A stretch of DNA of 64,000 nucleotides, from assembly GCA_003153575.1 (NCBI GenBank), contig PLZW01000010.1:1-64000 (forward strand), written 5' to 3'. Of this stretch, positions 3,149 through 45,356 are shown in pieces. The position numbers were made by a program, and so were the translations under genes. The stretch's first letter is position 1; the number at the start of each line of letters is the position of its first letter. This stretch comes from Acidimicrobiaceae bacterium. Its GTDB lineage: Bacteria; Actinomycetota; Acidimicrobiia; Acidimicrobiales; RAAP-2. A model generated the notes under the pieces. The model ran no database searches. It had not been told where the DNA came from and was given only the letters and a program-made list of their open reading frames with translations.

Positions 3149-4339
3149 TCAGGCTGGCACCGGCATGCCCAGGAGCTCGAACATGTTGCCGCCCATGATC
3201 TTGCGCACGTCCGGCTCGGGGTAGAGCGCCGACACTTCGGCGGCCCACTCGAAGGGCTCGGCCAGCCCCTCGGGGTGCGGGTAGTCGGAGCCGAAGAGGA
3301 TGTGCTCCGGTGTCATCACATCGATGAGCGCCTCGAGCGAGTCCTCCCAGAACGGGTTGATGTAGATGTTCCGGAGGAAGACCTCCCGCGGCGGCTCGGC
3401 GAAGGCCTTGGGCATCTTCCCGTAGGTCTTCTCCATGGCCTTCAGGCAGTGCAGGGCCCAGCTGCCGCCGTTCTCCACGCTCAGCAGGCGGACGGCGGGG
3501 AACCGGCTCAGCATCCCGTGGCAGATCGCCGAGGTGATGGTGTCGCTGATCGGCCGTCCCGTGTTGACGGCGTCGGTGAACGGCCGGGGGGCGAACGGCG
3601 TCATGTCCCGACCGTCGCCCTCCCACTCGTTGGCGTGGCGCTGATAGCCGGAGTCGGAGGCGTGCATGGCCACGAGGACGCCTGACTCCTCGATCCTCCG
3701 CCAGAAGGTGTCGAACTCGGGGAGGAAGGGGGACCGGGTGCCCCGGGTGCCGGCCACCGGACCCGGTCGGAGCAGGACCACCTTGGCGCCGCGCTCCAGC
3801 ACCCAATCGAGCTCGGCGATGCCGCGCTCGGGAAGGCACGGGTTGACCACCGGCGTGGTGAAGATCCGTTGCTCGTAGTCGAAGGGCCACTCGTCGAACA
3901 GCCACTGGTTGTAGGCGTGGATGACCGCGCAGGTCATCTCGGGGTCGTCCAGGAGATTGACCTCGATAAGGCTGGCCAAGGTGGGGAACATCAGGGCGGC
4001 GTCGACGCCGGTCTCGTCGAGCAGCTTGAGCCGGAACTCGGCGGAGCGGAAGGCGTCGATGGCGTGGATGGGCGTGCCGGCCATCTCGCGGAGGGTCTTG
4101 CCCTCCGGGTTCCGGCCGGAGAAGTAGTCGGCGAACGATCCCGGCGGGGCCACGACCTCGAAGGTGGGATTGGGGATGGACTCGCTGATCACGTTGTTGA
4201 TGGCGATCTTGGTGCGACCGTGCACCTCGACGTACTTGATGAAGCCCTCGTACTGCTTCGGGAGGTAGCGGGTGAGCGCGTCGCCGGTCTCGTACAGATG
4301 GTTGTCGGCGTCGAAGATGGGACCTTCATAGGTGGGCAT
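3149..4339 (-). CDS. Amidohydrolase-2 family metal-dependent hydrolase
   Basis: This 396-residue TIM-barrel protein belongs to the amidohydrolase-2 family, which includes hydrolases and decarboxylases acting on carboxylates. The N terminus has FDADNHLYE where many relatives have a His-x-His metal pair, so the first metal ligand is replaced by Asp. Later signatures are VAMHASDSGY and LFGSDYPHPEGL, the latter carrying the Asp expected near the metal. ATG 4339 follows GAGGG. It is clearly a paralog of 22382-23572: both share a DADNH N terminus, a PNPTFxVVAxPG segment and the SDYPHPEGL motif. It lies downstream of a ferredoxin gene on the same strand. The substrate is not known. Confidence 0.85.
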   Translation of the reverse strand: MPTYEGPIFDADNHLYETGDALTRYLPKQYEGFIKYVEVHGRTKIAINNVISESIPNPTFEVVAPPGSFADYFSGRNPEGKTLREMAGTPIHAIDAFRSAEFRLKLLDETGVDAALMFPTLASLIEVNLLDDPEMTCAVIHAYNQWLFDEWPFDYEQRIFTTPVVNPCLPERGIAELDWVLERGAKVVLLRPGPVAGTRGTRSPFLPEFDTFWRRIEESGVLVAMHASDSGYQRHANEWEGDGRDMTPFAPRPFTDAVNTGRPISDTITSAICHGMLSRFPAVRLLSVENGGSWALHCLKAMEKTYGKMPKAFAEPPREVFLRNIYINPFWEDSLEALIDVMTPEHILFGSDYPHPEGLAEPFEWAAEVSALYPEPDVRKIMGGNMFELLGMPVPA

Positions 4340-14007: not shown

Positions 14008-15831
14008 ATGTCAGGAATGGATCCGCCCGCGAGCTACGACCCCGAGACCGTTCGCGCCAAGTACCTCTCCGAACGTGACCGGCGGCTCGTCCCGAACCGG
14101 GCCGAGATCCGCGACCTCCGGGGCGATGAGCATTTCGCCGGTTACCGCGCCGATCCGTTCACGCCACTCATCGAGCGAGACCCGTTGGCCGACGACGTCG
14201 GGGTGGTCGTCGTCGGCGGGGGAATCGCCGGGACCCTCGCCGGCGTCCGCCTCCGCGAAGCCGGGGTCGAGCGCATCCGGATCGTCGACCAGGCGGGAGG
14301 CATCGGGGGGACCTGGTACTGGAACCGGTATCCCGGCGTCATGTGTGACGTCGAGTCGTATATCTACATGCCCATGCTCGAGGAGCTCGACTACATCCCG
14401 AGCCAGCGGTACGCCCTGGGCGGCGAGATCCTCAGCCACCTGCAGGCCGTCGCCGATCGCTACTCCCTGACGGACGACGCGCTCTTCCACACCGGGGTGA
14501 GCCGCGCCGAATGGCAGGACGAGACGGATCGTTGGTTGATCACCACCGACCGGGGTGACCAGCTCACCTGCCAGTACTACGTCCTGGCTGTCGGCATTCT
14601 CAATCTCATGAAGCTCCCCGCCGTTCCGGGTATGGAGGAGTTCGCCGGGCACTCGTTCCATGGGGCACGGTGGGACTACGGGTACACCGGAGGGGGGCCA
14701 GGCCAACCGCTCACCAACCTGGCCGACAAGAAAGTGGCGCTCATCGGCAACGGAGCCAGTGGTATCCAGGCCCTGCCACCCCTGGCCGAGGCGTCCGAGC
14801 ACGTCTACCTGTTCCAGCGCACGCCCTCCGCCGTCGGAGAGCGCGGTAACCGACCGACCGACCCCGGCTTCGCAGCCACGCTCGAGCCGGGCTGGCAACG
14901 GGAGCGGATGGACAACTTCCAGGGGATCATCATGGGCCGGCACTACGACGTCGACCTGGTCGACGACGGGTGGACCCACGATTACGCCGCCAACCGCAAC
15001 GTCCCGGGCCGCAAGGAGATGACCATCGAGGAGATCAAGCGGGCCTCCGAGGAGATCGACTATCGGATCATGGAGGCTCACCGGCAGCGGGTCGACGAGT
15101 TCGTGTCCGACCCCATCAAGGCGGAGATCGTGAAGCCCTACTACCGGTATCTCTGCAAGCGGCCCTGCTTCCACGATGAGTACCTGCCGGCACTGAACTG
15201 CGACAACCTCACCATCGTCGACTGTCCGGGCGGTGTCGAGCGGGTCACCGAACAGGGTCCGGTGGTCGACGGCCAGCAGTACGAGGTGGACTGCATCATC
15301 TACGCAACCGGCTTCGAAGCCGAGGTCACGCCGATCTTCCGCCGTGTCGGCCATGAGATCGTCGGCCGCGGCGGCATCACCCTGGCCGAGAAGTGGGGGG
15401 ATGGCGGCGCCAGTCTGTTCGGGATGATGAGCCACGGGTTCCCCAACATGTTCATCATGCCGGCGCCGGGGCAGCAGGCCGTGGTGACCGTCAACTACAC
15501 CCAGCTGGCCGTCCTCGGCGCTGAGTTCATCGGCCGCACGGTCGGGCAGCTCTTGCAGAAGGGTGTGGAGGCGTTCGACGTCAGCGCCGAAGCAGAGGAA
15601 GCCTGGACCCAGAAGATCGTCGACGGCTTCGTCGATTCCTCCGCCATCATGTCGGCCTGTACGCCCTCCCGCCTGAACAACGAGGGCCACCCCGAGACGA
15701 TGAATCCACGCAACGGCAATTACGGCAGTGGGCTCGGCAACTGGTTCGGCTACCGCGAGCTGCTCGAGCAGTGGCTCGAGGCCGGCAATCTCGAGGGCCT
15801 GGAACTCGAAGTCTGTCCGACGGCGCCGTGA
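14008..15831 (+). CDS. Flavin-containing monooxygenase, Baeyer-Villiger type
   Basis: This 607-residue class B flavoprotein monooxygenase has two Rossmann motifs: VVVVGGGIAGTLAG for FAD (near residue 68) and VALIGNGASGIQAL for NADPH (near 245). Between them is the Baeyer-Villiger fingerprint F-x-G-x-x-x-H-x-x-x-W, seen as FAGHSFHGARW at 212-222. Length and an N-terminal extension of about 60 residues match the phenylacetone/cyclohexanone monooxygenase group. It would insert oxygen next to a ketone to give an ester or lactone. GTGA at its end overlaps the SDR that follows, and an amidohydrolase overlaps next. That order suggests alcohol-to-ketone oxidation, lactone formation and hydrolysis. 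The pathway order is inference. Confidence 0.92.
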   Translation: MSGMDPPASYDPETVRAKYLSERDRRLVPNRAEIRDLRGDEHFAGYRADPFTPLIERDPLADDVGVVVVGGGIAGTLAGVRLREAGVERIRIVDQAGGIGGTWYWNRYPGVMCDVESYIYMPMLEELDYIPSQRYALGGEILSHLQAVADRYSLTDDALFHTGVSRAEWQDETDRWLITTDRGDQLTCQYYVLAVGILNLMKLPAVPGMEEFAGHSFHGARWDYGYTGGGPGQPLTNLADKKVALIGNGASGIQALPPLAEASEHVYLFQRTPSAVGERGNRPTDPGFAATLEPGWQRERMDNFQGIIMGRHYDVDLVDDGWTHDYAANRNVPGRKEMTIEEIKRASEEIDYRIMEAHRQRVDEFVSDPIKAEIVKPYYRYLCKRPCFHDEYLPALNCDNLTIVDCPGGVERVTEQGPVVDGQQYEVDCIIYATGFEAEVTPIFRRVGHEIVGRGGITLAEKWGDGGASLFGMMSHGFPNMFIMPAPGQQAVVTVNYTQLAVLGAEFIGRTVGQLLQKGVEAFDVSAEAEEAWTQKIVDGFVDSSAIMSACTPSRLNNEGHPETMNPRNGNYGSGLGNWFGYRELLEQWLEAGNLEGLELEVCPTAP

Positions 15832-17483
15832 CCGCCCGCCAGCGGGTCGCGGTCGTCACCGGCGGTGGAGGGGGGATCGGCGCGGGGATCGCCGAAGAGC
15901 TCGGCCGGGACGGGTGGTTCGTCGTCACCGTCGACCCCCTGGTGACCCTCGACGGGACCGAACGGCTTCCCGAACCGCTGGAGACGACGGCGGGCCGGAT
16001 CGTGGCCGCTGGTGGTTCGGCCCGTGCGTCGTCCGTGTCCGTCACCGACGGCCAAGCGGTGCATGCACTGTTCCGTGAACTCGTGGACGAACACGGCGGT
16101 CTCGATGCCGTCGTCAACGTCGCCGGCATCACTCGCCAGACCTACTTCGGTCTGGGGACCGAGGAGGACTGGCGGGCGGTCGTCGCCGTGCACCTGGAGG
16201 GCTACCTCAATGTGCTCGACGCCGCACTGCCTCTGATGGCCGAGGCGGGGTTCGGTCGCATCGTCGGCGTCACCTCAGGATCGGGTTGGCGCGCCGCCGA
16301 TGCGGGCGCCTACAGCTGCGCCAAGCGGGCCGTCGCCGCCCTCACCTGGCAGTTGGGACGTCTGGCCCCGCCGGGGGTGACCGTCAACGCCTTGTCGCCG
16401 ATCGCGGCCACCCGAATGATGGCCTCCGCCCTCGAACGGGCCAGAAAAGCGGGCCAGTCCGGCGGGGGAGGCATCTCCTTCCTCTCCGTCGCCGAGCCCG
16501 AGGACATCGGTCCGTTCGGCGCCCACGTCCTCGGCGAGGGATTCGGCTGGTGCACGGGCCAGGTGCTCTTCGCCGGTGGTCCGGAGGTGGCCGTCGTCGA
16601 GGAACCCCGCCTGATCGAGGTCGTGCGCACCGATCGGGTGGCCTCCCTGGCCCGGATGCTCGACGAGTTCGTACCCGCCGGGCTGGCCAAAGCCGAGGCC
16701 CGTCAGGCCAGCACGGGCGGCAGCAACCCCCGGTTCGGACCGATCTTCGACGAGGAGTTCATCGCCGGGGGCACGCCACCGGATGTTCGGTCCTGCATCG
16801 TCGTCTCCGACCATCGCGGTCTGCGGGAGTCGCTCACGTCGGCCCTCGCCGCCCGCTCCATCCGTTGCCACCCGGTCGAGCCCACCCACACCTTCGACGA
16901 CGCCGCCAAGGCGTTGGACTCGGCCATCGACGCCGTGGGTCCGATCGACGCCGTCGTCAATGCCGCCGCGGCGCGTCGAGGCTCCACATCTCCGGCCGAA
17001 GGCTGGGAGCGCTTGCTCGCCGAACACCGCAACATCGTGTCGGACATCCTCACCGATGCCGCCTCGGCGCGCGCCGCCGCAGGCTATTCCGCCCAGACCG
17101 GTCGTCCACTGCGGCTGGTGACGATCACCGACGCCACCGACACGGGGGGTCGTAGCCGGGCCCAGGCCTCCGCTCAGCACGCCCGGGGGGCCGCCGGCAC
17201 CACGGAAGGTCGTGTGGCGGCTTTCGCCGTGAGCCTCGAAGCACCCGGGGAGGACGGGGTCAGCTCGGCGAGCGAGCTCGCCGCCCACCTGGTCGGCCAT
17301 CCGGAGGCGGCCGCGCTGGCCGGCTCGGAATTGGTCGTCGGCCAGGGCTGGTTGGGGCTGCGCAGCCATCCCCGGCCGACCGGCAGCATCACCTACGGCG
17401 GTCCGTCCGTGCCCGACTGGGTGGACGGGACGTTGCGCGAGATCATCTCTCCGCCCGGCCGCCACGACTACGGCACCCCATGA
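15828..17483 (+). CDS. SDR-family oxidoreductase with a degenerate second SDR domain
   Basis: This 551-residue protein is about twice the normal SDR length. Residues 1-250 form a complete classical SDR: VVTGGGGGIGAGIAEEL for cofactor binding, NVAGI, and catalytic Tyr162 and Lys166 in YSCAKRA. Residues ~310-551 look like a second Rossmann unit (SCIVVSDHRGLRESL, then IDAVVNAAAARRG) but lack a clear glycine-rich loop and Y-x-x-x-K, so that half is probably structural. GTG 15828 overlaps the monooxygenase stop as GTGA. It likely interconverts an alcohol and a ketone for the upstream monooxygenase. The frame is open further 5', but that part lies inside the monooxygenase. Confidence 0.88.
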   Translation: MTARQRVAVVTGGGGGIGAGIAEELGRDGWFVVTVDPLVTLDGTERLPEPLETTAGRIVAAGGSARASSVSVTDGQAVHALFRELVDEHGGLDAVVNVAGITRQTYFGLGTEEDWRAVVAVHLEGYLNVLDAALPLMAEAGFGRIVGVTSGSGWRAADAGAYSCAKRAVAALTWQLGRLAPPGVTVNALSPIAATRMMASALERARKAGQSGGGGISFLSVAEPEDIGPFGAHVLGEGFGWCTGQVLFAGGPEVAVVEEPRLIEVVRTDRVASLARMLDEFVPAGLAKAEARQASTGGSNPRFGPIFDEEFIAGGTPPDVRSCIVVSDHRGLRESLTSALAARSIRCHPVEPTHTFDDAAKALDSAIDAVGPIDAVVNAAAARRGSTSPAEGWERLLAEHRNIVSDILTDAASARAAAGYSAQTGRPLRLVTITDATDTGGRSRAQASAQHARGAAGTTEGRVAAFAVSLEAPGEDGVSSASELAAHLVGHPEAAALAGSELVVGQGWLGLRSHPRPTGSITYGGPSVPDWVDGTLREIISPPGRHDYGTP

Positions 17484-18346
17484 CCGATCGGCCCGCCCGC
17501 ATCGTCGATGCCCACGTACACCTGTGGGACCCTGCCCGGACCGACTGGTATCCGTACCTCGCCGTTCCCCAAGCTGCTCCCACCGGTGACCCGTCACGGA
17601 TGTCCCGGCTGTTCGATGTGGCCACCTACCGGTCGGAGACGGCGGGGTGGCAGGTTGACAAGTTCGTCAACGTGGCGGCGGCCACCGGCGGCCACTCGGT
17701 CGAGGAGACCATCGAGCTGGACCGCGAGGCACCGGCCCGGGGTGGTCCCGACGCCATTGTCGGAGGCATCCCGCCGACCGAGTCGGTGGCCGAAGCCGTC
17801 GGTCTGCTCGACCGGCAGATGACGGCGTCCCGGTTCCGTGGCGTCCGCCCCATGGGACGGTATGAGGGACCGCTTCCCGACGCCGGTGTCCTCCTCGAGC
17901 TCCAAGAGCGGCATCTGCTGTTCGAATTGATGGCCCATCCCGACCGGCTCCGCTTGGCTGCCGAGCAGCTGGCCCGCTTCGACCGGCTGGTCGTCGTGGT
18001 CGAACATGCCGGCTGGCCCCGATCGGACTCCGACGAGGAGCGCGCCCTCTGGAAGGACGGCATCGATGCGCTGTCAGATCTCGGCGACAGGGTCGTGTGC
18101 AAGCTCTCGGGACTGGCCATGCCGTTGGCCTCGATGAGCGTGGACGCCTTCGCCCCGTGGCTCGAGTACGCAATCGAAGCCTTCGGTGTCGATCGCTGCA
18201 TGTTCGCCAGCAACTTTCCCGTCGACTCCATGTACGGCACCTTCGACGAGCTGTTCGAGGTGTTCAGCGGGGTGACGGCCGGGCTCGATGCCGAGTCCCG
18301 CCTGAAGCTGTTTGCCGGCAATGCCGAGACCGTCTACCGCTGCTAG
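17480..18346 (+). CDS. Amidohydrolase-2 family hydrolase (lactonase-like)
   Basis: This 288-residue TIM-barrel hydrolase keeps the canonical metal motif His-x-His in IVDAHVHLWDP. Later it has VVEHAGWP and MFASNFPVDSMYGTFDEL, the usual C-terminal Asn/Asp strand of small amidohydrolase-2 proteins such as lactonases and 2-pyrone-4,6-dicarboxylate hydrolase. It overlaps the SDR gene by 4 bp (ATGA), so it is tightly coupled to the Baeyer-Villiger-type enzyme; lactone hydrolysis would be the natural third step. Unlike most amidohydrolases in this window, its first metal ligand is not replaced. The function is inferred from context and family. Confidence 0.87.
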   Translation: MTDRPARIVDAHVHLWDPARTDWYPYLAVPQAAPTGDPSRMSRLFDVATYRSETAGWQVDKFVNVAAATGGHSVEETIELDREAPARGGPDAIVGGIPPTESVAEAVGLLDRQMTASRFRGVRPMGRYEGPLPDAGVLLELQERHLLFELMAHPDRLRLAAEQLARFDRLVVVVEHAGWPRSDSDEERALWKDGIDALSDLGDRVVCKLSGLAMPLASMSVDAFAPWLEYAIEAFGVDRCMFASNFPVDSMYGTFDELFEVFSGVTAGLDAESRLKLFAGNAETVYRC

Positions 18347-19627: not shown

Positions 19628-19662
19628 TTCCGCACCTGTTCGGCCGGGGCCGGCGACCATGA
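19612..19662 (+). CDS. Leader ORF (16 aa) ending on HMGS-like start codon
   Basis: GTG 19612 opens MHENLLPHLFGRGRRP, whose TGA overlaps the ATG of the next gene as ATGA. It starts 7 bases after TATGCT. The right arm of an inverted repeat lies within it. A basic, proline-ended peptide and the exact overlap suggest translational coupling rather than a stand-alone product. Confidence 0.4.
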   Translation: MHENLLPHLFGRGRRP

Positions 19663-21128
19663 CCGACGGCATCGTGTCCTGGGGTTCCTACCTCCCGTAC
19701 TGGCGCCTCCAGCGCAGCGCCATCGGCGCCAGCCTGGGGGGACCCGCCGGGCGGGGCAGCCGGTCGGTGGCCTCCTACGACGAGGACACCACGACGATGG
19801 GGCTCGAAGCGGGGCGCCGCGCCCTGGCCGCACTCGACGGCCCCGTCCCCGAGGACCTGTTCTTCGCCACCCCGGCCCCGGCCTACCTGGACAAGACCAA
19901 CGCCACGGCGATCCACGGGGCCCTGGAGCTACCCGGCTGGGCCGGTGCCTACGACATGATCGGCTCGGTGCGCTCGTCGGTCGGGGCACTGCGGGCGGCC
20001 CGGGGGGTCGCCGGCGACCACCGAGCGGTCGCCGTGTTGTCCGATCTGCGGACCGGGCTCGCCGGTGGCAGTGAGGAGCGCGATAGCGGCGACGGGGCCG
20101 TAGCCCTCGTCTTCGGGGCCGACGACGACGACGCCGTGGTGGCCGAGTGGATCGCCCACGCCGGCACCACCGCCGAGTTCCTGGACCGCTGGCGGACGCC
20201 GGGGGAGACCGATTCCAAGGTGTGGGAGGAACGGTTCGGCCAGGAGGTCTACGTCCCGCTGGTCCACCAGGCCTGGTCCGAGGCGCTCAAGTCGGCGGGC
20301 GTGACGGCCACCGAGGTCGACCACGTCGCCGTGGTCGGCCTGCACACCCGGGCCGTCGGCGCCGTCCGGACGTCGCTCGGGGTGCGCCCCGAGGCGGTCG
20401 TCGCCGACCGGGCGGCGACGGTCGGGAACCTGGGGGCGGCCGAACCGGGTGCGGCCCTGGCCGACATGCTGGAGCGGGCCGAGCCCGGAGCACTCCTGGC
20501 CCTGGTGGTGGTGGCCGACGGTGCCGACGTTGTGCTGCTGCGGGCCACCGACGCCCTTCCCGCCGCCCGGCAGGCGAGGCACGCCGCCGGTCTGGCCGAC
20601 GTGGCCGACCAGGCGGCATCGGGCCCCGGTGACCTGCCCTACGCGCGGTTCCTCACGTGGCGGGGCGCACTGCTCCGGGAACCGCCCCGTCGTCCCGACC
20701 CCGAACGACCCGGCGCCCCGGCCACATGGCGCTCCACGCCGTGGAAGGGCGGATTCGAGGCCAGCGACTGCCGGTCCTGCGGATTCCGGCACCTTCCTCC
20801 GGCCCGGGTGTGCCTGCGGTGCCGGACCATCGACGAGATGGACCGGGTCCGACTGGCCGACGTGGGCGGCCGGGTGGCCACCTACACGGTCGACCGGTTG
20901 GCCTTCTCCATGTCTCCACCCGTCATCGGCGCCGTCGTCGACTTCGACGGCGGCGGCCGCTACCGCTGCGAGATGACCGATGCCGATCCGGACGCCGTGG
21001 CCATCGGCACCCGGGTGGAGATGGTCTTCCGGCGGCTCAACACGGCCAAGGGTGTGCACAACTACTTCTGGAAAGCGCGTCCGGTGGACGTGCCCGGTGA
21101 CGCAGACGACGAAGGGGAGGACGCATGA
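19659..21128 (+). CDS. HMG-CoA-synthase-like protein fused to zinc-ribbon OB-fold (DUF35)
   Basis: Residues 1-350 of this 489-residue protein resemble the thiolase-fold 3-hydroxy-3-methylglutaryl-CoA synthase family (start VSWGSYLPYWRL, then EDTTTMGLEAGRRAL). Residues 365-480 are a DUF35 OB-fold with a four-Cys zinc ribbon (C371-x2-C374, C385-x2-C388). No cysteine occurs before residue 371; the segment where the synthase nucleophile should lie reads MIGSVRSSVGALRAA. It is therefore unlikely to catalyse condensation and may instead be a scaffold for the thiolase that overlaps it (ATGA). DUF35 proteins are known partners of thiolases in archaeal mevalonate synthesis and of Ltp2 aldolase in steroid side-chain removal. 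Its role here is inference. Confidence 0.85.
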   Translation: MTDGIVSWGSYLPYWRLQRSAIGASLGGPAGRGSRSVASYDEDTTTMGLEAGRRALAALDGPVPEDLFFATPAPAYLDKTNATAIHGALELPGWAGAYDMIGSVRSSVGALRAARGVAGDHRAVAVLSDLRTGLAGGSEERDSGDGAVALVFGADDDDAVVAEWIAHAGTTAEFLDRWRTPGETDSKVWEERFGQEVYVPLVHQAWSEALKSAGVTATEVDHVAVVGLHTRAVGAVRTSLGVRPEAVVADRAATVGNLGAAEPGAALADMLERAEPGALLALVVVADGADVVLLRATDALPAARQARHAAGLADVADQAASGPGDLPYARFLTWRGALLREPPRRPDPERPGAPATWRSTPWKGGFEASDCRSCGFRHLPPARVCLRCRTIDEMDRVRLADVGGRVATYTVDRLAFSMSPPVIGAVVDFDGGGRYRCEMTDADPDAVAIGTRVEMVFRRLNTAKGVHNYFWKARPVDVPGDADDEGEDA

Positions 21129-22327
21129 GCTCGAACGGGATCCGTGACCGGGTGGCCATCGTGGGGATGGGATGCACGCCGTTCGGCGAGCGTTGGGACA
21201 AAGGAGTCGACGACCTGTTGATCGACGCGGCCAAAGAGGCCATCGCCTCGGCCGGCGTCACCCTGGACGACATCGACGCCTTCTGGCTCGGGACCATGAC
21301 CTCGGGCACGTCGGGGATCACCCTGTCCAAGCCGCTGAAGATCGACTACAAGCCGGTCACCCGCGTGGAGAACTTCTGTGCCACCGGGTCCGAGGCGTTC
21401 CGCAACGCCTGCTACGCCGTGGCGTCGGGCGCCTACGACCTGGCCATGGCCATCGGGGTGGAGAAGCTGAAGGACACCGGGTACTCCGGGCTCACCGGCA
21501 TCCGCCCGGTGGGCGACGGGACCGACGCCGCCCTGTCGTCCCCCGCCGCCTTCTCCTTCGTGGCCCCGTCGTATGCCGATCGGTACGGGGTCGACCCCGA
21601 GGAGATGAAACAGGTGATGAGCCGGATCGCCTGGAAGAACCACCGCAACGGTGCGGTCAACCCCCGGGCCCAATTCCGCAAGGAGATCTCCATGGAGACC
21701 ATCACCCGATCGCCGCTGGTGGCCGGGAACCTCGGGGTCTACGACTGCAGCGGTGTGAGCGACGGATCGGCGGCGGCCATTATCTGCCGGGCCGAGGACG
21801 CCCATCGCTACTCCGACAATCCGCTCTACGTGAAGGCGCTGAGCTTCGTGGCCGGACCCGGAGGCGGCTTCATCGACCCCGACTACGACTACACCACCTT
21901 CCCCGAGGTGGTGCGCTCGGCCGAGGACGCCTACCAGCAGGCCGGGATCACCGACCCCCGGGCGTCGCTGGCCATGGCCGAGGTCCACGACTGCTTCACC
22001 CCCACCGAGCTCGTCCTCATGGAGGACATGCGGTTCTCCGAACGGGGCCTCGGATGGAAGGACGTGCTGGCCGGCACCTTCGACCGCGACGGCGAGCTGC
22101 CGGTCAATCCTGACGGGGGCCTCAAGAGCTTCGGCCATCCGATCGGGGCGTCAGGGCTCCGCATGCTGTTCGAGTGCTGGCTCCAGCTGCGTGGCGAGGC
22201 ACCGCCCGAACGGCAGATCGCCACGGTGGCGGAGGGGCGCACCCTGGGCCTGACCCACAACCTCGGGGGCGCGCCCGGCGAGTGCGTGAGCTTCGTGTCC
22301 ATCGTGGGACCCGACCTGGCGGACTGA
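21125..22327 (+). CDS. Thiolase-family protein (SCP-x/acetyl-CoA acetyltransferase type)
   Basis: This 400-residue thiolase-fold enzyme has the nucleophile Cys85 in ENFCATGSEAF, an acid-base segment HDCFTPTELVLMED, His338 in SFGHPIGASG and a C-terminal HNLGGAPGECVSF. It would cleave a 3-ketoacyl-CoA or act as a retro-aldolase. It overlaps the HMGS-like/OB-fold gene by 4 bp and almost certainly forms a complex with it, as thiolase-DUF35 pairs do. The active-site residues are intact, in contrast to the partner. A strong bidirectional hairpin follows at 22333-22366. Confidence 0.92.
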   Translation: MSSNGIRDRVAIVGMGCTPFGERWDKGVDDLLIDAAKEAIASAGVTLDDIDAFWLGTMTSGTSGITLSKPLKIDYKPVTRVENFCATGSEAFRNACYAVASGAYDLAMAIGVEKLKDTGYSGLTGIRPVGDGTDAALSSPAAFSFVAPSYADRYGVDPEEMKQVMSRIAWKNHRNGAVNPRAQFRKEISMETITRSPLVAGNLGVYDCSGVSDGSAAAIICRAEDAHRYSDNPLYVKALSFVAGPGGGFIDPDYDYTTFPEVVRSAEDAYQQAGITDPRASLAMAEVHDCFTPTELVLMEDMRFSERGLGWKDVLAGTFDRDGELPVNPDGGLKSFGHPIGASGLRMLFECWLQLRGEAPPERQIATVAEGRTLGLTHNLGGAPGECVSFVSIVGPDLAD

Positions 22328-22381: not shown

Positions 22382-23572
22382 TCAGGCCGGAACGCCCACG
22401 CCCATCAGCCCGGCCAGGTTGCCGCCCATGATCTTCGCTTTGGTGTCGTCGGCCATGCCGTCGAGCTCGTCGACGTAGCTGATGGGATCGGCCAAGCCCT
22501 CGGGATGGGGGTAGTCGCTGCCGAAGAGCACGTGGTCGGCGCCTACCAGATCCACCAGCGACTGCAGGTTGTCCTCCCAGAACGGATTGACGTAGACGTT
22601 GCGCAGGAACGCCCCGGCCGGGTCCTCCTCGAACTGCTGCGGCATCTTGGCGTACAGGTCGGACAGGTCGTGGAGCAGGTGACGGACCCAGTTGGCCCCG
22701 TTCTCCACGGCCGCCACCTTGAGGTCCGGGAACCGGCTGAAGGCGCCGTGGCACACCATGGCCGCCATGGTGTCGGCGATGGGCCGCTTGCCCTGGGAGA
22801 TGGCCCGGAAGGCCGACGGCTGGAAGGGGAGGAACTCCGAGCTCTCCTCCCACCAGTTGGCGATCTGGCTGTAGCCGCTGTCCGACGCGTGCATGCCGAC
22901 CAGCAGGCCGGCGTCCTGGATGCGCTCCCAGATCGGGTCGAACATGGGCAGCCCGGGGGAGCGGGTGCCGCGCAGCCCGGGCACCGGGGCTGGCCGGATC
23001 AGCACGCAGCGGGCGCCCCGCTCGATGACGAGCTCCAGCTCGGCCAAGGCCTCGTCGACCATGCCCATGGCGATCACCGGGGTGGCGAAGATGCGGCCTT
23101 CGAAGTCGAACCTCCACGTCTCGTACATCCACTCGTTGAGCCCGTGGATGACGCCTTGGATGAGTTCGGGGTCGTCCTTCAGGCGCTCCTCGATGAGGCT
23201 GGCCAAGGTGGGGAACATCAGGGCCCGGTCGATGCCGAGCTCGTCCATCAGCTCGATCCGGGGCTCGGGGGCACGGAAGCCCGGGAGGCACTTGATGGGG
23301 TCGCCGATCAGCTCCCGGTAGGACTTCCCCTCGGGATTGCCGTTCCGGTAGAAGCTCTCCTGGGCGCCGGGTGCCGCCACCACGTCGAACGTCGGGTTGG
23401 GGATGTACTCGCTGATGGCGCCCCGGACCACGATCTTGGTCCGGCCCCGCACGTCGATGTAGTCGATGGCCTTGGCGTACTTCTCGGGGAGGAACTTGGT
23501 CAGCGCCTCCTTCGTCTCGTACATGTGGTTGTCGGCGTCGAAGACCGGATAGTCGAGCGTGCGGGATGGCAT
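22382..23572 (-). CDS. Amidohydrolase-2 family metal-dependent hydrolase
   Basis: This 396-residue protein is the close paralog of 3149-4339. It starts MPSRTLDYPVFDADNHMYE, again with Asp-Asn-His in place of the His-x-His metal pair, and ends with FGSDYPHPEGLADPISYVD. The middle has GMHASDSGYSQ. The start at 23572 has AGGGGAA upstream; a start 14 codons earlier has no support. It has a 193-bp gap upstream that contains the terminator of the preceding operon, so it is likely transcribed alone. Family members act on carboxylated or amide substrates; a decarboxylase or C-C hydrolase activity is possible. Confidence 0.86.
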   Translation of the reverse strand: MPSRTLDYPVFDADNHMYETKEALTKFLPEKYAKAIDYIDVRGRTKIVVRGAISEYIPNPTFDVVAAPGAQESFYRNGNPEGKSYRELIGDPIKCLPGFRAPEPRIELMDELGIDRALMFPTLASLIEERLKDDPELIQGVIHGLNEWMYETWRFDFEGRIFATPVIAMGMVDEALAELELVIERGARCVLIRPAPVPGLRGTRSPGLPMFDPIWERIQDAGLLVGMHASDSGYSQIANWWEESSEFLPFQPSAFRAISQGKRPIADTMAAMVCHGAFSRFPDLKVAAVENGANWVRHLLHDLSDLYAKMPQQFEEDPAGAFLRNVYVNPFWEDNLQSLVDLVGADHVLFGSDYPHPEGLADPISYVDELDGMADDTKAKIMGGNLAGLMGVGVPA

Positions 23573-23742
23573 CCGAAGTTCCCCTTTTCGTCGTCCGGAG
23601 TCTGCAGGGCCCATGCGGGCAGCCCCGTCCCCGGTGTGCGGCGGCGGGCGGAGGCTCCGTCTCGCCGTACGAGAACGACGTTAGCACCGACCCGTCAGAC
23701 ACCCCCTCGCATCCCGGCTCCGACTGCCTGGCTCCGGTGCCT

Positions 23743-44066: not shown

Positions 44067-45356
44067 ATGGACATCAATGACATGGTCATGGTCAGCGTCG
44101 ACGACCACGTGGTGGAGCCTCCCGGCATGTTCGACGACCGGCTGCCGGCCAAGTACGTCGACCTCGCCCCGAAGTTCATCACCAACGACGACGGCACCAA
44201 CTCCTGGCTCTACGAGGGCCAGGTCCTGCCCAACGTCGCCCTCAACGCCGTGGCCGGCCGGCCGCGCGAGGAGTACGGACTCGAGCCCACCTCCTTCGAC
44301 CAGCTTCGGCCCGGTTGTTTCGACATCCACGAGCGGGTGAAGGACATGGACGCCAACGGGGTCCTCGGGTCGCTCTGTTTCCCCTCCTTCCCCCAGTTCT
44401 GCGGTCAGCTCTTCGCCCGGACCGAGGACAAGGACGTGGCCCTCGCCATGGTCCGCGCCTACAACGACTGGCACATCGACGAGTGGTGCGGGACCTACCC
44501 GGGCCGCTTCATGCCCTGCCCGATCCCGGCCGTCTGGGACCCGGAGATCATGGCCGCCGAGATCCGCCGGACGGCGGCCAAGGGTGCCCACGCCGTGACC
44601 TTCTCGGAGAACCCGTCGAAGCTGGGTTGGCCATCCATCCACTCGGACCACTGGAACCCGGTGTGGAAGGCGTGCAGCGAGGAGGAGGTCGTCGTGTGCA
44701 TGCACATCGGGTCCTCGTCGGCCCTGGTGATCACCTCCTCCGACGCCCCGATGGACTGTCTGATCACCCTCCAGCCGATGAACATCGTCCAGGCCGCCAC
44801 CGACCTGGTGTGGTCGCCGGTGCTGCGGTCGTTCCCCGATCTGAAGGTGGCGCTCTCCGAGGGCGGCATCGGCTGGATCCCGTACTTCCTCGAGCGGGTC
44901 GACTACAACTACGACCGCCACCACGCCTGGACCGGTCAAGACTTCGGCGACCAGTTGCCGAGCGAGGTGTTCAACCAGCACGTGCTGACCTGCTTCATCG
45001 ACGACCAGTTCGGCGTGGCCAGCCGCGACTTCCTCGACATGGACAACGTGATGTGGGAGTGCGACTACCCCCACTCCGACTCCACCTGGCCGACCGCCCC
45101 CGAGACCCTGTCGGCCAACCTGGCCGGCATGTCCGACCACGACCTCGACCGGGTCACCCACCTGAACGCCATGCGCCACTTCAACTACGACCCCTTCACC
45201 ATCCTGGGTGGCAAGGAGCAGTGCACGGTTGGCGCACTGCGGGCCCGGGCGGTGGGCCGTGACGTCTCCATCCAGTCGAAGTTGCGCGCCGGCGTCGCCA
45301 AGTCGGGCACGCTGGCCGTCGACCTGCTCAAGGTGGGCGGCTCCTCAGGCGACTGA
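44067..45356 (+). CDS. Amidohydrolase-2 family metal-dependent hydrolase
   Basis: This 429-residue TIM-barrel protein starts MDINDMVMVSVDDHVVEPPGMF, with Asp-Asp-His replacing His-x-His at the first metal site. It has VVCMHIGSSSALV in the middle and NVMWECDYPHSDSTWP near residue 330, the metal-proximal Asp strand. It is paralogous to 48053-49252, sharing the VDDHxxEPP start, PREExxxEPxxFDQxRPGC segment and CDYPHxDSTWP motif. ATG 44067 follows GGGGGAG. A gene for a CaiB CoA-transferase comes next after a 100-bp gap with competing hairpins. The function is not assigned beyond family. Confidence 0.87.
   Translation: MDINDMVMVSVDDHVVEPPGMFDDRLPAKYVDLAPKFITNDDGTNSWLYEGQVLPNVALNAVAGRPREEYGLEPTSFDQLRPGCFDIHERVKDMDANGVLGSLCFPSFPQFCGQLFARTEDKDVALAMVRAYNDWHIDEWCGTYPGRFMPCPIPAVWDPEIMAAEIRRTAAKGAHAVTFSENPSKLGWPSIHSDHWNPVWKACSEEEVVVCMHIGSSSALVITSSDAPMDCLITLQPMNIVQAATDLVWSPVLRSFPDLKVALSEGGIGWIPYFLERVDYNYDRHHAWTGQDFGDQLPSEVFNQHVLTCFIDDQFGVASRDFLDMDNVMWECDYPHSDSTWPTAPETLSANLAGMSDHDLDRVTHLNAMRHFNYDPFTILGGKEQCTVGALRARAVGRDVSIQSKLRAGVAKSGTLAVDLLKVGGSSGD

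Follow-up and report, generated by a model that had tools for sequence, protein, structure and literature searches.

What becomes of an enzyme fold once its catalytic residues have gone, and why should it be kept beside an intact enzyme? The question is raised by two adjoining genes in a 64,000-nucleotide stretch of DNA from an Acidimicrobiaceae bacterium (contig PLZW01000010.1), which we refer to as the window. The first gene encodes a protein in which a domain resembling 3-hydroxy-3-methylglutaryl-coenzyme A (HMG-CoA) synthase (HMGS) is fused to a DUF35 protein, with its zinc ribbon and OB-fold. The second encodes a thiolase. At the core of the finding is a plain contrast: the fusion has lost every one of the HMGS catalytic residues, whereas the adjoining thiolase has retained its full set. 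Our answer is that within a heteromeric 3-ketoacyl-CoA thiolase the fusion probably does no catalysis but serves as scaffold and CoA-site partner, in catabolism of the beta-oxidation type. The features on which the argument turns are as follows.

19659..21128, plus strand: HMGS-like/DUF35 fusion protein, 489 amino acids (open reading frame, Pfam, NCBIfam and model)
19659..20678, plus strand: HMGS-like (thiolase-fold) domain, about residues 1-340 (6ESQ profile match and structure match)
19872..19874, plus strand: P72, at the column of the HMGS catalytic Glu (Glu in 0/111 relatives)
19968..19970, plus strand: V104, at the column of the HMGS nucleophile Cys (Cys in 0/111 relatives)
20334..20336, plus strand: V226, at the column of the HMGS catalytic His (His in 0/111 relatives)
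20679..20726, plus strand: linker between the domains, about residues 341-356 (gap between profile matches; low predicted confidence)
20769..20822, plus strand: DUF35 zinc ribbon, C371-x2-C374-x10-C385-x2-C388
20853..21032, plus strand: OB-fold domain (PF01796), residues 399-458 (Pfam)
21125..21128, plus strand: overlap of stop and start codons, four bases, ATGA
21125..22327, plus strand: intact thiolase, 400 amino acids, NCBIfam NF004810/PRK06157
21377..21379, plus strand: thiolase C85, nucleophile column
21986..21994, plus strand: thiolase H288-D-C290 (HDCF motif)
22136..22138, plus strand: thiolase H338 (GHP motif)

The catalytic column carrying V226 is that of a His, which we take to have a role in HMGS catalysis; a separate His, H229, lies three residues further on and is kept in 105 of 111 relatives. 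The other two columns are those of the Cys and Glu that are key residues in the HMGS of 6ESQ, a solved complex of thiolase, HMGS and DUF35 proteins (PMC6392133; here and below, papers are cited from partial texts). An earlier, sequence-only reading of this DNA had noted that no Cys precedes residue 371 and that Ser and Val occupy the nucleophile segment. Both observations hold: the only Cys residues in the fusion are 371, 374, 385, 388 and 437, and alignment to 6ESQ chain I places S103 and V104 at the site. The 111 relatives comprise 31 genome-search matches (the window copy included) and 80 related loci, some genomes contributing to both; since the 80 are the best of 556 confirmed loci, the set samples the closest members of a family that is larger still. 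Across it the nucleophile column reads Val 76, Leu 17, Ser 5, Pro 4, Ala 4, Thr 3, Ile 1 and Gln 1. A wider set of 73 was drawn phylum-wide, with 20 Rokubacteria loci and 11 bacterial plasmid and three haloarchaeal fusions added; it includes Proteobacteria and overlaps the 111 by four loci and a few genes. The HMGS Cys, Glu or His appears in none of the 73 (the Cys column is gapped in two), even though 31 of them are less than 40% identical to the window fusion (L112 and L131, both among the 31, are one gene). The HMGS nucleophile, whose conservation would have undone the sequence-only reading, is found in neither family alignment. Because all 111 close relatives show the same losses, chance or sequencing error can be set aside; judged from the alignments, the loss is ancestral, and the domain is very likely a pseudoenzyme as regards HMGS chemistry.

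That the protein is a fusion of an HMGS-like domain and an OB-fold, as had been proposed, is borne out from several directions. Pfam assigns both PF08541 (ACP_syn_III_C; 29.5 bits against a cut-off of 26.6) and PF01796 (OB_ChsH2_C; 45.2 bits against 27.1). A profile built from 25 sequences (the window copy and 24 relatives) matches chain I of 6ESQ almost end to end, positions 3-332 covering residues 5-348 of 349 at an E value of 1e-36, and its positions 349-470 match the DUF35 protein, chain E, over residues 5-129 of 130 (E 2.4e-11). Since the profile covers both chains nearly whole, what we see is two complete proteins in head-to-tail order with a short linker between them. In the AlphaFold2 model the mean predicted local distance difference test score (pLDDT) is 90.7, with a dip in the linker to means of 72 (residues 341-350) and 65 (351-360), and the predicted template modeling score is 0.92. 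In this model the N-terminal domain has the fold of HMGS and 3-ketoacyl-ACP synthase III (KAS III). The nearest solved chain to model residues 1-340 is 6ESQ_J (Z 44.0, root-mean-square deviation 2.0 over 333 residues), followed by PhlA (Z 41.6-42.9), the HMGS-like chain of MucABC (Z 39.4-39.5) and other HMG-CoA synthases (36.4 or below), and Foldseek returns the groups in the same order. By profile and by structure alike, the closest chains are subunits of multi-component complexes (6ESQ HMGS, PhlA and the MucABC chain), with other HMGS and KAS III enzymes behind them.

The thiolase could hardly be more different. HDCF and GHP are motifs with established roles in thiolases, and the window protein has both. 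As the sequence-only reading had it, this gene comes next, with a four-base overlap that suggests translational coupling of the two genes, and its catalytic residues C85, H288, C290 and H338 are intact. All four are invariant in the 33 partners aligned (the window copy and 32 of 66 full-length candidates) and kept in all 13 plasmid and haloarchaeal partners; C387 is not conserved among the relatives. The protein scores 603.5 bits against NF004810/PRK06157 (cut-off 403). Its best match in the Protein Data Bank (PDB) is the 6ESQ thiolase (5.3e-55), PhlC-type chains being far weaker at 1.6e-23 at best.

How faithfully do the two genes travel together? In 81 genomes related to that of the window, searched for both, 66 of 70 fusion places have a thiolase on the same strand, -1 to 182 bp downstream. 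The other four are partial fusion matches, two of which begin at base 6 of a contig. A fusion match longer than 1 kb is found in 48 of the 81 genomes, and a thiolase in all 48; two genomes, G056 and G066, have the thiolase with no fusion match of that length, and both hold a partial one. In a mixed set of loci, the spacing between the two genes is -60 to 150 bp for 98 of 109 pairs, 155-457 bp for five and 924-2192 bp for another five, and in one pair (L088) the two overlap through a frame read past its end. That 831-residue frame, spanning fusion and thiolase, had the look of a triple fusion; we rejected it, the frame being out of phase through the thiolase gene. Two further loci of the mixed set show no thiolase, L084 and L100, the latter cut by a contig end. 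On three haloarchaeal plasmids (L157:3893-6498, L158:2878-5501 and L159:2800-5417) the order is reversed, with the thiolase first, and the HMGS-like domain is again dead. Of the plasmid regions with annotation, 14 in all, 13 have next to the fusion a gene listed as thiolase or as acetyl-CoA acetyltransferase, the two names under which the partner is annotated. Distances among fusions correlate with those among their thiolase partners (r 0.81 over 79 non-identical pairs, against a maximum of 0.08 in 500 permutations), shared ancestry contributing to the correlation. The fusion itself goes by several names: OB-fold or zinc-ribbon protein, ACP synthase III, or HMG-CoA synthase. It is widespread: in the Rokubacteria phylum, 48 of 95 genomes have a match at an E value of 1e-20. 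The fusions on two contigs labelled Bifidobacterium breve (L061 and L065) share 94-97% identity with those from Actinomycetota/Ilumatobacteraceae metagenome-assembled genomes (L053, L055 and L060), and these labels are probably wrong.

What the pair does is suggested by the company it keeps. Around it in the window are acyl-CoA dehydrogenases, enoyl-CoA hydratases, short-chain dehydrogenases (SDRs), aldehyde dehydrogenases, CoA ligases and amidohydrolases; 29 of the 46 called genes were scanned, and neither a ring-hydroxylating dioxygenase match nor a polyketide synthase is among those 29. Over 81 loci (80 and the whole window; simple gene calling, which called the fusion itself in only 57 of the 81; clusters named from their sequences), the largest cluster of acyl-CoA dehydrogenases is present in 32 loci, that of SDRs in 23, that of enoyl-CoA hydratases in 15 and that of CoA ligases in 14. 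SDR, crotonase or MaoC genes accompany the pair on named plasmids. It is because of these neighbours that we read the pair as the thiolytic step in a beta-oxidation-type catabolism of varied acids.

Put together, our preferred explanation runs like this. Together, the products of the two genes would make up a single heteromeric thiolase, with catalysis residing in the thiolase chain, at C85, H288, C290 and H338, and the reaction being thiolytic cleavage of a 3-ketoacyl-CoA or the reverse, a Claisen condensation. By analogy with 6ESQ and PhlABC, the HMGS-like domain would dimerise and, through DUF35, hold the thiolase and complete a shared pocket for CoA and acyl group; joining HMGS-like domain and DUF35 in one chain would fix their ratio and position. 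The sequences themselves show the domain make-up, the complete loss of HMGS residues, the conservation of thiolase residues, the near-obligatory pairing and the beta-oxidation-type neighbours. The physical complex, the scaffold or pocket role, the thiolytic direction and the substrate are proposals built upon these, and the dead domain may contribute stability, part of the CoA pocket or gating. In this respect the sequence-only reading, which had the HMGS part turned non-catalytic and working with an intact thiolase, very likely stands; its further step, to a different lyase or aldolase, has no support in the thiolase.

Several observations pull the other way. That fusion and thiolase would form a physical complex is argued by analogy with known assemblies. 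In genome G066 the partial fusion match and the thiolase are on different contigs, locus L084 has about 2 kb downstream of its fusion without a thiolase match, and in the fourteenth plasmid region, on a Paraburkholderia plasmid (L185:6437-7708), an unannotated thiolase-like frame following the fusion stops early. The correlation of partner distances still includes shared species history, and the neighbour counts are raw, without a background control. Four of the 11 bacterial plasmid copies (two from Rhodococcus, one from Variovorax SRS16 and one from Niveispirillum) lie with ring-hydroxylating dioxygenases, a setting in which the thiolase might act in removing an aryl side chain and not in beta-oxidation. 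And the HMGS-like domain is more conserved than a bare scaffold needs: D99, S106, R131, D145 and R231 are invariant in all 111 relatives, and R105 is kept in 108. Such constancy, most of all at R131 and D145, allows for a role beyond scaffolding.

Might the domain, then, still be an enzyme? One form of the idea is that it still acts as HMG-CoA synthase by means of a replacement nucleophile, in line with its fold, its NCBIfam match to archaeal HMGS and a Streptomyces copy annotated as hydroxymethylglutaryl-CoA synthase. Yet Cys, Glu and His are all gone, and the scores fall far below the equivalog cut-offs (NF003274, 101.8 against 244; TIGR00748, 46.5 against 353). HMG-CoA reductase, moreover, is present in two of the 48 genomes that hold a fusion match longer than 1 kb and was not found in the other 46, the window's own (76% complete) included; over all 81 genomes, many of them incomplete drafts, it was not found in 77. 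With the catalytic residues gone and the reductase mostly not found, HMG-CoA synthesis is unlikely, and a functioning HMGS of this kind strikes us as barely credible. Another form gives the domain a new active site, formed for example by R131, D145, H229 and R231, which would carry out a separate step and make the pair bifunctional. Among the 111 relatives these four change rarely or never, in contrast to the free variation at the former nucleophile column. Another 42 fusions were compared, and 36 of them retain R131 and D145; D145, which is Ala in both 6ESQ and PhlA, is a mark of the fusions. But in those same 42, H229 has become Tyr, Asp, Asn or another residue in 30 and R231 has become Gly or Lys in 20. 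We think such a site unlikely. S106, tried as a replacement nucleophile, is Ala or Gly in 20 of the 42, and its column holds Ala in the active 6ESQ enzyme and Ser in PhlA, as expected for a small structural residue; we rejected it as a general nucleophile. The most far-reaching version, a domain rebuilt on R131, D145, H229 and R231 as a different catalytic or gating site, would make this an undescribed two-site enzyme, with one branch also zinc-free, and is unlikely.

The remaining alternatives change the chemistry of the partner. A lyase or aldolase, or an arylacyl-CoA deacylase, on the lines of Ltp2/ChsH2, Sal/Shy or ibuprofen IpfD/IpfE, would use the same combination of DUF35 and thiolase-fold partner. 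The four dioxygenase plasmids, three of which have an AMP-binding gene of the CoA-ligase type in the annotated stretch, recall the ipfABDEF cluster (PMC6063337), and IpfE is annotated as an OB-fold domain-containing protein (PMC11347016). Against this, Cys85, HDCF and GHP persist in the window thiolase and its relatives, where Ltp2 has a Tyr pair and Sal has YDCY (PMC12329534), which leaves aldolase chemistry without support, and a dioxygenase match occurs in none of the 29 scanned window genes. We consider this unlikely. A C-acyltransferase like PhlABC or MucABC has in its favour that PhlA and the MucABC chain, also without the Cys, are among the nearest solved structures. The scanned window genes, however, are of the catabolic acyl-CoA type, and the thiolase is closest to that of 6ESQ and to other thiolases, not to PhlC-type proteins; an acyltransferase seems very unlikely. 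The heteromeric thiolase with a non-catalytic fusion subunit remains, on this evidence, our preferred reading.

The zinc ribbon has a history of its own. Its four Cys ligands are all present in 68 of the 111 relatives and all absent in 43. Their loss needs one change on a FastTree phylogeny of the whole protein and two on an IQ-TREE phylogeny of the HMGS domain, from which the zinc columns are excluded, which fits one or two events in the fusion family; on the thiolase tree the zinc state of the partner changes four times. The window's genome holds both kinds: beside the zinc-ligand copy described here there is a paralogue (G000:C27:31512-32948; L002, L116), 52% identical and with its own adjoining thiolase. 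As it has no Cys at all, its ribbon cannot bind zinc by Cys. A model of one zinc-less member (L083) has a mean pLDDT of 67, with most of the DUF35 half at 30-60; it comes from a 26-row alignment and is uninformative on the zinc-free fold. In a further fusion (L130, G115:C14:54299-55576) the profile match jumps over positions 364-391 while the protein itself runs on uninterrupted, which would look like outright deletion of the ribbon segment.

A few features of the surroundings deserve a record. The window has four amidohydrolase-2 (PF04909) genes, at 3152-4339, 17480-18346, 22382-23614 and 44067-45353, all in one catabolic region, and two of them flank the block of acyl-CoA dehydrogenase, fusion and thiolase. 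At 15771-17483 lies a 570-residue open reading frame whose short-chain dehydrogenase domain is confined to the N-terminal half; the other half gave no Pfam match at an E value of 1e-3. Two Rhodococcus plasmid operons (L180:1124-9994 and L181:1100-9580) run AMP-binding protein, ring-hydroxylating dioxygenase, fusion, thiolase, hydratase and acyl-CoA dehydrogenase, a logic that resembles the ibuprofen ipf cluster.

If our reading is right, these thiolases need their fusion partner to work, and tests of the thiolase alone may mislead. The family would also offer a natural series for how a catalytic subunit becomes an obligatory non-catalytic one, and its pairs make the contribution of an HMGS subunit to a thiolase directly testable. 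No paper on the fused family turned up in our literature search, which lay outside most subscription journals. DUF35 fusions to members of the thiolase superfamily, along with an inactive/active pair from that superfamily, were described in 2010 (PMC2954200). They may include this family, and with them the premise from which the sequence-only reading started is partly wrong. A ketothiolase and a CoA ligase are reported among the auxin iad genes (PMC12633357); a fusion is not stated in the part of that paper available, and we have not used it as evidence.

To our knowledge, BbsAB, the benzoylsuccinyl-CoA thiolase (PDB 7PXP), has no HMGS-like domain, and BbsAB-type entries are among the NCBIfam and PDB matches of the window thiolase. 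It resembles our pair in being a catabolic thiolase with a DUF35-type subunit (PMC12329534). In the steroid aldolases ChsH2-Ltp2 and Shy-Sal, too, DUF35 shares its chain with a second domain and binds a partner of thiolase fold; there, however, the second domain is a hydratase, and the partner's Tyr pair or YDCY carries out retro-aldol cleavage (PMC12329534).

The closest relatives are the three-protein complexes. 6ESQ has the same three domain types as the window pair and is the best PDB match for the thiolase (by sequence), the HMGS-like domain (by profile and fold) and DUF35 (by profile). It differs in being three separate proteins with an active HMGS (Cys114 and Glu82) of the mevalonate pathway; CoA binds where all three meet (PMC6392133). 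The sequence-only reading had taken an active HMGS to be the rule in such assemblies, and here it was mistaken. In PhlABC of Pseudomonas (PDB 5M3K and 9SKH) the HMGS-like PhlA lacks both residues, having Gly115 and Cys83 at the Cys and Glu sites; only the thiolase-like PhlC catalyses, PhlB is the DUF35 protein, and obtaining active enzyme requires expression of the entire operon (PMC6392133). PhlABC in turn differs from our pair in being three separate proteins with a biosynthetic role, the CoA-free acyl transfer to phloroglucinols. MucABC of Streptococcus macacae (9VBO and 9VBT), by its PDB title a multi-component acyltransferase complex, has Glu rather than Cys at the nucleophile column of its HMGS-like chain (9VBO_A, presumably MucA), although its task is tetramate acetylation (PMC10161427). 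With HMGS-like domain and DUF35 in one chain, the window pair is a variant, not a plain member, of these thiolase/HMGS-like/DUF35 assemblies: fused, and with its HMGS part dead as in PhlA. What is new is this fused, widespread and almost obligatorily paired form, together with the finding that some of its members have lost their zinc ligands.

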